NCBI RefSeq assembly: GCF_013307435.2
Contig: NZ_CP102845.1
Span: forward strand, 62,001-126,000
Direction of reading: 5' to 3'
DNA from: Microvirga terrae
Lineage (GTDB): Bacteria > Pseudomonadota > Alphaproteobacteria > Rhizobiales > Beijerinckiaceae
DNA length: 64,000 nucleotides
The notes beneath the pieces are model-generated. The model saw only the letters and a program-made list of their open reading frames with translations. It was not told the origin of the DNA and did no database searches. A program made the translations under genes and the position numbers. The first letter of the stretch is position 1. The number at the start of each line of letters is the position of its first letter. Positions 25,219 through 35,820 of this stretch are shown piece after piece.

Positions 25219-25319
25219 GCGCTCACCCTCGCCGGCAGCACCGCATGTGCCGGTGATCGCGATGATGGGAGGCGCGGCGCCGGTCCGGATTGGGATGGGC
25301 CCGCCTTGATCCTCTCCCG

Positions 25320-25410
25320 GTCATCACCGGGCGTGTCCCGGTGATCTCGCTTGCTTGAAGCGCCGCGCCGTTCCGATCGGGATGGCCGGCACAGGGCCGG
25401 CCATGACGGG
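25320..25410 (+). repeat. Family-B palindromic repeat, copy 1
   Basis: Two hairpins joined by a spacer: a first TCATCACCGG...CCGGTGAT stem, spacer with GCTTGAAGCG, then GGATGGCCGG...CCGGCCATGACG. The same arrangement recurs at 25832, 30137, 48293 (inverted) and 54998. Always between genes. Confidence 0.8.
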
Positions 25411-25524
25411 CGCAGGGTGGCGGGACGGAGGAGCGTCACGCTGCGGTGCGGGTTCGTGATCTGTGCGCTGTCAAAGAGCAGCACCTGTGGGCCCGCAGCC
25501 GTGGGGCTGCGAGCCTGTCAGATG

Positions 25525-25741
25525 GATCGAGGGTGGCGCGAGTGGCAGCCCGGCTCGATGTCTGAGGTGATAAGCGAGAGCCAAGCTGCTCGTCGCGCAC
25601 GGTTCTTTTCAGGCGGACCAGCTGGACGGAGCCCAAGGTCGGCCTCCTGCGCGCCCAGGTTTGCGAAGCCTGTCGCAGGACCGTGCCGGCTCCCACACTT
25701 GCGACGCCTCGCGAGCGCGCCCCTCGTCGGAACCGATCTAC
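25525..25741 (-). ncRNA. Candidate structured non-coding RNA, rod-like fold
   Basis: On the minus strand, directly after a consensus promoter, the sequence folds into nested helices: GATC 25735-25738 with 25525-25528; GAGGGGCGCG 25716-25725 with 25531-25540; GGGAGCC 25688-25694 with 25576-25582; GCACGGT 25680-25686 with 25597-25603; CCTGCG 25674-25679 with 25646-25651. Such colinear pairing over about 215 bases is the signature of a long rod with internal bulges. No protein frame fits and no gene follows on that strand. Size, rod shape and strong promoter recall 6S RNA, but I cannot confirm the family; the conserved cores of RNase P, SRP RNA and tmRNA are not seen. The 3' end is uncertain; a GCAGCC-loop-GGCTGC hairpin at 25495-25510 may end it. 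Confidence 0.5.
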
Positions 25742-25747
25742 GCCATG

Positions 25748-25776
25748 ATATAGCTTAGCTTGCACCCGCTGTCAAG
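25748..25776 (-). promoter_or_regulatory. Consensus promoter of the candidate ncRNA
   Basis: CTTGAC (25776-25771), a 17-base spacer and CTATAT (25753-25748) on the minus strand match the strong alphaproteobacterial housekeeping consensus CTTGAC-N17-CTATAT exactly, as used for rRNA and abundant small RNAs. The predicted start is about 25741-25739. Confidence 0.75.
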
Positions 25777-25831
25777 AACAAAGGTGGAACATCATCGCAC
25801 CTACACCTGTCCACCACTCCGACCCTCGGCC

Positions 25832-25920
25832 CGTCATCACCGGCCCTGTGCCGGTGATCCCGACCCGTAAGGCGCTCTGCTCTTCCAATCGGGATGGCCG
25901 GGACAAGCCCGGCCATGACG
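25832..25920 (+). repeat. Family-B palindromic repeat, copy 2
   Basis: CGTCATCACCGG...CCGGTGATCCCGA, a spacer of about 26 bases, then TCGGGATGGCCGGGACAAG with CCCGGCCATGACG. Full two-hairpin copy. Confidence 0.85.
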
Positions 25921-25974
25921 TGAGGGTGTCAGGACGGACGGAAGGTGGCGAGGAAGAGCGCCGCGCTTCACCGC

Positions 25975-26007
25975 ATCGGGATGGCCGGGACAAGCCCGGC
26001 CATGACG
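25975..26007 (+). repeat. Family-B half repeat (second hairpin only)
   Basis: ATCGGGATGGCCGGGACAAG followed by CCCGGCCATGACG is identical to the right half of copy 2, 88 bases downstream of it. The flanks are also similar, so this is a tandem duplication of the half element with its neighbouring sequence. Confidence 0.8.
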
Positions 26008-26222
26008 GGGTGGGTGTCAGGAAGGACGGAGGGTGGCGAGACGAGCGGAGGGTGCGGGAGCGGGCTGGTCGGGACGGGCCGGCCCTGACGATGGATGCCG
26101 TGACCCGGAGGCACCGGCCGCGACGCGACGGGTGGCCGCCCTGGCCTCGGCCGGACGCCGATCCGGTCCGTCGCATCCTCGCCCCTCGCCAGATGCCCGC
26201 CAGAAGCCTATTTCAGGAGGCC

Positions 26223-34338: not shown

Positions 34339-34605
34339 CGTAACCTCCTCTGGCCGGATCCTTTCTGAAGACGTTCGGTCCGGCTTCATCAACCTACACA
34401 ATCAACGCGGACCGGCGCCTGAACGATCCGTTTTCTGGGGTTCATGGTCCTGACGGGCCCGTGGCGGTCCGTTCCCGTCCACCGCTCCAGGCCGAGTTTC
34501 GGCGCACGGGCCCTCCGGCGATGCGACCTCCCGCCCCTCTCCTGGGTCTCGCCTTCCCGCCGCGACCGTGCTAGAACAAAACACGAACAATTCTGCTGGA
34601 AGACC

Positions 34606-35820
34606 ATGGACGAGAAGCTTTCGAAGAAGCTGCGCATCCTGGCGGACGCGGCCAAATACGACGCCTCCTGCTCCTCCTCCGGTGCGCCCAAGCGCAAGGC
34701 GGACGCGGGAGGTCTCGGCTCGACCGAGGGGAGCGGCATCTGCCACGCCTACACGCCGGACGGGCGCTGCGTGTCGCTGCTCAAGATCCTGCTCACCAAT
34801 TACTGCCTGTTCGACTGCGCCTATTGCGTGAACAGGCGCTCGTCGAACGTGAAGCGGGCGAAATTCTCCGTCGACGAGGTGGTGACGCTCACCATCGAGT
34901 TCTACAAGCGCAACTATATCGAGGGCCTGTTCCTGTCGTCGGGCATCATCCGCTCGCCCGACTACACCATGGAGCAGATGCTGCTCGTGGCCAAGAAGCT
35001 GCGGCGCGACCACGGCTTTCGCGGCTACATCCACCTGAAGACCATCCCCGAGGCGAGCCCCTGGCTCATCGAGGAGGCGGGCCTGTGGGCCGACCGCCTG
35101 TCGATCAACCTCGAGCTGCCGACGGAAAGGAGCCTGGAGCGCCTCGCGCCCGAGAAGGACGGCGCCTCCATCGAGACCGCCATGGCGCAGATGTTCGAGC
35201 GCATCGAGGAGGCCCGCGAGGAGCGCCGACACTTCTCGCCGGCGGGCCAGACCACCCAGATGATCGTCGGCGCGGACGAGACCACGGACGCGGACGTGCT
35301 GCGCACCTCGGCCAAGCTCTACGGCCATTACGACATGAAGCGCGTCTATTATTCCGCCTTCAGCCCGATTCCGGATTCGAGCGCCATCCTGCCGCTGAAA
35401 TCGCCGCCGCTCATGCGCGAGAGCAGGCTGTACCAGGCCGATTGGCTGCTGCGCTATTACGGCTTCGACGTGGACGAGATCGCGTCCGGGGGCGAGAAGG
35501 GCATGCTCGACCTCGACGTGGATCCGAAGCTCGCCTGGGCGCTGAAGAACCGCCATCGCTTTCCCGTCGACGTGAACCGGGCCGACCGCGAGATGCTGCT
35601 GCGCGTGCCGGGCCTCGGCGCCCGGGCGGTCGACAAGATCGTGGTGGCCCGCAAGCACACGACCCTGCGCCTGGAGGATGTCGCCCGCCTTACCTCGGGT
35701 CTCAAGCGCGCCAAGCCGTTCCTCATCACGGCCGACCATCATCCGAAAGCCAGACTCGATACCCTCGACCTGCGCGAGCGGCTGATCGAGAAGCCGGAGC
35801 AGCTGAGCCTGTTCGGATGA
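34606..35820 (+). CDS. Putative DNA modification/repair radical SAM protein
   Basis: The 404-residue protein has the radical SAM cluster motif Cys67-x3-Cys71-x2-Cys74 in NYCLFDCAYCVNR, the family lead GICHAYTPDGRCVSLLKIL, the barrel strand LFLSSGIIRSPDYT and a C-terminal helix-hairpin-helix (MLLRVPGLGARAVDKIVVAR). This is the group named putative DNA modification/repair radical SAM protein and it is nearly always paired with a DUF4130/UdgX gene, as here (ATGA overlap). The reaction is not known; the HhH suggests DNA contact. Confidence 0.88.
   Translation: MDEKLSKKLRILADAAKYDASCSSSGAPKRKADAGGLGSTEGSGICHAYTPDGRCVSLLKILLTNYCLFDCAYCVNRRSSNVKRAKFSVDEVVTLTIEFYKRNYIEGLFLSSGIIRSPDYTMEQMLLVAKKLRRDHGFRGYIHLKTIPEASPWLIEEAGLWADRLSINLELPTERSLERLAPEKDGASIETAMAQMFERIEEAREERRHFSPAGQTTQMIVGADETTDADVLRTSAKLYGHYDMKRVYYSAFSPIPDSSAILPLKSPPLMRESRLYQADWLLRYYGFDVDEIASGGEKGMLDLDVDPKLAWALKNRHRFPVDVNRADREMLLRVPGLGARAVDKIVVARKHTTLRLEDVARLTSGLKRAKPFLITADHHPKARLDTLDLRERLIEKPEQLSLFG

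Follow-up and report, generated by a model that had tools for sequence, protein, structure and literature searches.

A dispersed family of structured RNA genes with a putative LexA operator in Microvirga terrae

An intergenic element in a 64,000-nucleotide stretch of the Microvirga terrae genome (the window) is a member of an undescribed, multi-copy family of structured RNAs and not a lone small RNA. The main new finding concerns its control region, where GTTC-N7-GTTC, a sequence matching the LexA box of alphaproteobacteria, overlaps the -35 element in all but one of the 111 copies examined. The repeat unit of approximately 325 bp, consisting of the LexA-type operator, a promoter and an RNA of approximately 260 nt, occurs in 27 copies in this genome (G000). 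In the window, it occupies the gap between genes for an AlkZ-like (YcaQ) glycosylase and a PAP2 protein (both assigned by Pfam), and its features are listed in Table 1.

The initial annotation had described a minus-strand CTTGAC-N17-CTATAT promoter followed by a rod-shaped RNA of about 215 bases in a gap lacking protein frames. The promoter was found where described, with both hexamers invariant among the copies, and comparison across copies likewise bore out the lack of a protein frame. The proposed span proved too short, as the match to the RNA model and the operator both reach further, and neither the LexA-type box nor the occurrence in 27 copies had been noticed.

Table 1. Features of the element copy in the window (positions are those of the window)
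Feature	Position	Strand	Basis or remark
LexA-type operator, ATGTTC-N6-TGTTC	25776-25792	-	Sequence; GTTC-N7-GTTC at 25776-25790, overlaps the -35 element
-35 element (CTTGAC / TTGACA)	25770-25776	-	Sequence; CTTGAC itself at 25771-25776
-10 element, CTATAT	25748-25753	-	Sequence; 0 segregating sites in four genome sets
Predicted transcription start	25741	-	Inferred from promoter spacing, ~7 nt past the -10 element
Structured RNA body	25466-25729	-	Match to covariance model R1, model positions 1-261
Conserved 24-mer GAGGGGCGCGCTCGCGAGGCGTCG, 5' side of the RNA	25702-25725	-	Matches in own genome and copies in G082
3' G+C-rich hairpin, possible terminator	25490-25515	-	Helix 8, compensatory changes
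GCTCTTTGACA tail, closing the conserved unit in the majority of copies	25469-25479	-	Comparison of copies

Copy number and structure of the RNA

A covariance model (R1) built from 30 aligned copies, with the window copy (L032) among the 30 rows, gave 27 matches in the 6.13-Mb genome, all of which fell on the largest contig (C1, 5.3 Mb). The window copy scored 251.3 bits and was the sole full-length match within the window. When positions 25430-25790 were used as a DNA query, 40 of the 48 genomes of the genus gave matches, and the M. terrae genome did so in at least 14 places at 92-100% identity, the latter being a lower bound because this search scored only 14 candidates per genome. A search for the promoter pattern returned 26 sites, and in one additional copy (L045) the spacer is longer by a single base. 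The conserved 24-mer, allowing up to two mismatches, had 25 matches in the genome, and those listed all lie inside element copies. Some copies (L048, L049, L051 and L057) diverge directly past the GGTGCTG of the 3' tail. Spacing of the copies around the chromosome was not significantly even (gap CV 0.73; 6% of random placements were as even).

Two variant forms were also observed. Two divergent copies in the M. terrae genome (L058 and L059) have in common an altered 5' core (GCTCGAGGCGT-TCGC), which is also found in L009 of genome G034 and marks a subfamily, while L020, L023, L024 and L030 (from G033, G020, G001 and G013, respectively) have a longer RNA, which carries an additional domain of approximately 60-70 nt near helix 5.

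Folding of the single window sequence was only modestly better than that of shuffled sequences (z of -1.40 for 25525-25741, with 19 of 200 shuffles folding as well; z of -2.58 for 25440-25745, with 0 of 100 folding as well), whereas comparison of 30 copies gave much stronger evidence. RNAalifold predicted eight helices with 44 pairs for this alignment, arranged as a helix that closes the structure, an arm made up of several parts, another arm whose loop is open, and a hairpin set apart at the 3' end, so that the RNA predicted initially is indeed structured, but branched and not rod-shaped. Standard pairs filled 96.5% of cells, compared to at most 43.8% when partners were slid. Changes on both sides occurred in 13 pairs and 51 cells, compared to 6.9 and 14.6 in shuffled alignments, and the covariation score was 0.214, compared to at most 0.064 with slid partners. 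Four of the five covariation measures exceeded all 500 shuffles, and the fifth exceeded 483 of the 500; in this test, the structure was derived from the same alignment.

A second alignment, made with MAFFT, contained 54 copies not used before, many of them from the same genomes, together with the window copy. Here, 93.3% of cells were paired, 60 cells carried double changes compared to 27.5 in shuffled alignments, and the covariation score was 0.161 compared to at most 0.052 with slid partners. Three of the five measures exceeded all shuffles, and the slid controls were far below, while the number of pairs with double changes (10 compared to 9.1, 201 of 500 shuffles) and the number of pair types (35 compared to 37.5, 485 of 500 shuffles) were not above those of the shuffles. 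Helix 5 was paired in only 61.3% of cells in this alignment. Covarying pairs, which the initial annotation had proposed to look for, are thus present in both alignments, and covariation supports most of the helices, though not by every measure. Structures predicted separately on the two sets have 57 of their 73-74 pairs in common.

The invariant 5' GAGGGGCGCGC has two potential pairing partners, GCGCCACCCTC and the 3' tail, which allows for two alternative folds. Helix 7 has an apical loop that is poor in G (4.5% and 5.6%, compared to 32.5% for the whole RNA) and takes 27 different sequences in 30 rows, implying that it is kept open and not used as a fixed antisense seed. Helix 8, the G+C-rich hairpin near the 3' end, shows compensatory changes in both alignments, with columns 244 and 259 of the 30-copy alignment pairing as CG in 21 copies and as GC in 8. 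The terminator scan of the window listed no consensus terminator for the element.

The LexA-type operator and promoter

In a set of 111 distinct copies drawn from 29 genomes, GTTC-N7-GTTC was present in 110, at a distance of 62-67 nt before the RNA core; TGTTC-N6-TGTTC was found in 101 and the promoter, by a simple pattern, in 105. In a first set of copies, the box was found in 53 of 56; one of the misses has GCTC as its second half-site, and in the other two (L020 and L021) the region had been misplaced. As described in PMC13384398, the experimentally defined LexA consensus of Caulobacter is (T/A)TGTTC(N6)TGTTC, which the element operator, ATGTTC-N6-TGTTC, fits. The arrangement resembles that of the alphaproteobacterial LexA regulon, in which TGTTC-N6-TGTTC overlaps a sigma-70-type promoter; in the M. 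terrae genome, this box is also found ahead of recA and of a gene for a Y-family polymerase. The members of that regulon are protein genes, normally at single loci, in contrast with the 27 copies of one RNA gene described here. A scan for sigma-70 promoters did not list the promoter of the element, even though both of its hexamers are invariant among the copies.

The occurrence of the box across the M. terrae genome was also determined. Plain GTTC-N7-GTTC is common by chance, with 232 sites compared to 149 for the control, while GTTC-N4-TTY-GTTC occurs at 49 sites compared to 4 for the control. Element copies hold 27 of these 49 sites, more than all other sites together. GTTC-N7-GTTCTTGAC occurs at 27 sites, coinciding with the 27 R1 matches, and its reversed control pattern at none. 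The surroundings of all 22 sites outside the family, one of which is in the window, were inspected. Boxes precede genes whose products match the Pfam families RecA (at 62 nt), IMS/Y-family polymerase (at 41 and 168 nt) and DnaB (at 220 nt), and others lie near an SSB gene and a radical SAM gene. Judged from these neighbouring genes, the box probably works as an SOS operator consensus in this genome. Among nine proteins near such boxes that were searched against Pfam, those named above were matched, and four predicted proteins (L063, L067, L070 and L078) had no match at 1e-5; these four are candidates for undescribed SOS genes. The surroundings of L078 match imuA-type loci carried by other plasmids. 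In the window, a second LexA-type box (GTTCGTGTTTTGTTC, as read on the minus strand) was noted at 34574-34588, just upstream of a plus-strand gene starting at 34606, the product of which presumably resembles radical SAM DNA-repair proteins.

To what extent the operator and promoter vary between copies of the same genome was determined for G000 (24 copies), G019 (14), G014 (9) and G006 (6). No segregating sites were found in the ten half-site bases, TTGAC or CTATAT in any of the four. In the same genomes, diversity was 0.07-0.22 in the N6 of the operator, 0.10-0.43 in the first 9 bases of the spacer, 0.22-0.53 in the upstream flank and 0.014-0.090 in the RNA core. These values were obtained with the divergent copies L050, L058 and L059 of G000 and L103, L106, L107, L110 and L113 of G014 left aside; the three from G000 also have the box. 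Invariant operator and promoter bases beside a variable spacer would be hard to obtain by recent copying or gene conversion alone, and this pattern points to selection on each copy.

Distribution and evolution of the copies

Of 40 other genomes of the genus, 32 contained matches to R1, with 2-34 in each and a median of 17; because some matches are partial, these counts are upper limits on the number of copies. The same 8 genomes lacked the family in both the DNA search and the R1 search, indicating that the family is dispensable. On a YcaQ tree, which was midpoint-rooted and carries no support values, four of these genomes (G018, G004, G008 and G010) form deep branches and the other four (G011, G017, G023 and G039) are scattered, the scattered lacks suggesting losses. 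The articles retrieved on Microvirga and small RNAs did not, in the text available, appear to concern small RNA genes.

Across 60 genomes from 43 genera of the taxonomic family, R1 matched only the M. terrae genome, one congener, a genome of another genus (G082, very probably Rhizobiales bacterium YIM 77505) and, weakly, G101, the last of which was judged from its sequence to be a chance match. G082 has five near-identical copies (L122, L126, L129, L132 and L135) with the same 24-mer and with promoters of two kinds, and GTTC-N7-GTTC was absent from them on the strand scanned. LexA control is thus not inseparable from the RNA, and the RNA core may either outlive its SOS operator or predate it. 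A search of 397 genomes of the order for the 24-mer, allowing two mismatches at most, found it in the M. terrae genome and once in G452 (L156); diverged relatives would escape such a search. No match was found in phages, and viral contigs contained no exact match to the 24-mer.

The positions of the copies are conserved in part. Of the 14 copies in G019, three (L081, L085 and L090, the last inverted) have both flanks in common with a copy in M. terrae, and a fourth (L087) has flanking genes in common with one in a less simple arrangement. Two more (L088 and L092) each join flanks from two different M. terrae copies, a sign that recombination at the element may have rearranged the chromosome. 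Partial sharing of flanks was similar for the copies of G009, G014 and G006. Identity within 11 syntenic pairs was 0.73-0.80, no higher than that of the best non-syntenic pairs, while copies within a species averaged 0.83-0.95, and a tree of the copies followed species for the most part. The exceptions were L050 of M. terrae and L098 and L099 of G009, which grouped with copies of G014. This pattern is most readily read as concerted evolution, or as repeated species-specific copying.

The gap between ycaQ and the PAP2 gene offers a closer view of one position. Among 47 ycaQ loci inspected with 1.5-2 kb of flank, only that of M. terrae has an intact copy in this gap, which indicates turnover through gain and loss of copies. 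In G026, the closest relative, the same gap contains a decayed remnant (L197, 2846-2896). A copy in G012 (L217) was dropped as an occupant, as it sits upstream of ycaQ, on its other side.

Proposed role and alternative explanations

It is fairly probable that the combination observed here, of dispersed copies, invariant operator and promoter, conserved structure and lack of a conserved peptide, represents an SOS-induced, multi-copy, trans-acting family of structured RNAs under LexA repression. Binding of LexA to the copies, their transcription and their induction are what we infer from the operator and promoter sequences. Against this reading stand the G082 copies in which the box was not seen, the 8 genomes devoid of the family, the turnover at the ycaQ-PAP2 gap, the two covariation measures and the poorly paired helix 5 of the second alignment, and the negative terminator scan. 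In an undamaged cell, LexA would sit on the operator overlapping the -35 element of each of the 27 dispersed copies and keep them off. Upon DNA damage, activation of RecA would lead to cleavage of LexA, and all copies would then fire together, resulting in a burst of one structured, untranslated RNA of approximately 260 nt. Because this product is nearly uniform between copies while their flanks and positions are not, the RNA would most likely act in trans. A core that stays constant and a loop that stays open hint at a bound protein, and the RNA might hold an abundant protein stoichiometrically through its invariant G+C-rich 5' and arm sequences, much as 6S or CsrB-type RNAs do; this is a guess, drawn by analogy, that we hold only tentatively. 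The likeness to 6S RNA (RF00013) and the CsrB/RsmZ-type sponges lies in the proposed role as an abundant, protein-holding RNA, and unlike them the element has no Rfam match. With similar reserve, we entertain a bolder possibility, in which the copies constitute an rDNA-like multi-locus family that is kept uniform by concerted evolution and LexA-repressed at every copy, so that damage would trigger a mass release of RNA holding a major protein or complex and thereby rewire the cell.

SOS regulons are usually seen as sets of repair and checkpoint proteins, whereas here the commonest SOS-type operators would drive one untranslated RNA, belonging to a family that is found in most genomes of the genus tested and has no entry in Rfam. 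Should induction occur as predicted, the RNA would represent a major product of the DNA-damage response in bacteria that has so far been overlooked, and its copies would offer a natural example of concerted evolution among dispersed bacterial genes outside the rRNA operons. Small RNAs under LexA control are known from enterobacteria (istR-2 and others), where they are untranslated, SOS-controlled and single-copy. The element resembles these in the SOS control of an untranslated RNA, and differs in being multi-copy; Rfam indicates no relation.

The main rival to an SOS-induced RNA family, which we nonetheless regard as unlikely, is a selfish, non-autonomous DNA element with its own LexA-controlled promoter. 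Damage would then turn on its RNA, and perhaps its spread, with no need for a benefit to the host, and similarity within species would reflect recent bursts of copying. The number of matches per positive genome, the gain of a copy in the ycaQ-PAP2 gap, clustering by species and the random orientation of the copies (9, 8, 5 and 5 in a rough ORF test) are all in keeping with this. Like mobile or repeat candidates and BRE-type repeats, as described in PMC11109978 and PMC3110155, the element is structured, intergenic, present in many copies, chromosomal and partly conserved in position; BRE, however, is approximately 90 bp, and the text available from these sources does not describe a LexA-controlled promoter for such repeats. 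It is also short, dispersed and devoid of a transposase gene, as are MITEs such as MiniMdi3 of Methylobacterium extorquens (PMC2680597). Unlike MITEs, it has no target duplication (in 51 copies, the mean common word was 2.73, compared to 2.61 +/- 0.19 in shuffled controls), and its operator, promoter and RNA are under constraint. No terminal inverted repeats were seen by eye, and a promoter that lies outside the transcript would be left behind if the RNA were simply retroposed. Plasmids are the usual gathering place of mobile elements. All 27 copies nevertheless fall on the largest contig, for which the chance is 0.019 by length alone, and R1 had no match among 72,556 plasmid records, including at least five from Microvirga (approximately 5.6 Mb together), which at the density of C1 should contain approximately 28 copies if their strains carry the family. 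Pieces of the smaller contigs C2 and C3 of the genome have their best matches among Microvirga plasmids. The flanking genes that several copies have in common between species, and the selection on each copy suggested by its invariant operator and promoter, further argue against a selfish element.

It is improbable that the element works as DNA, either through 27 operators whose titration of LexA sets the threshold of the SOS response or through repeats that serve as recombination sites, with the transcript as a by-product. The large share of GTTC-N4-TTY-GTTC sites held by the family and the rearrangements seen at 2 of the 14 copies in G019 would suit such a role, yet titration requires neither invariant -35 and -10 elements nor approximately 235 nt of conserved, covarying sequence. 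Still less credible is that the element encodes a small peptide, for example as the messenger of a type I toxin regulated by LexA. Toxins of this kind typically combine SOS control with a structured messenger (PMC1891008 and PMC3567139). No start codon common to at least 70% of 28 aligned rows opens a conserved frame, however, and a small-peptide gene, including one of the short hydrophobic type, was rejected on this basis. The SOS-controlled toxins with structured messengers include tisB, symE and dinQ.

A diverged 6S RNA, which the initial annotation had put forward on the strength of the promoter and long pairing, can safely be set aside, given that the genome has a separate 6S RNA (the one match to RF00013, at G000:C1:4633553-4633710, with 88.6 bits compared to a cut-off of 46.4), while the element is present in 27 copies, has no Rfam match and folds into a branched structure in place of the 6S-type rod, whose large central bubble resembles the DNA of an open promoter. 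Searches at Rfam gathering scores gave no match in the window or in 8 loci from other genomes, and the best sub-threshold match on the element was to asX1 (18.8 bits compared to a cut-off of 70), which leaves the other initial proposal, an undescribed structured small RNA behind a strong promoter, as the one supported. A further Rfam test gave three weak matches, all outside the element; the weak mir-4436 matches lie in palindromic repeats at 25831-25921. REP-like palindromes of the GGCCGGGACAAGCCCGGCCATGACG type flank the element in the window at 25225-25420 and 25831-26010. Similar repeats are found beside the other 13 M. terrae copies that were aligned, but in other species the sequences upstream of the copies are not alike.
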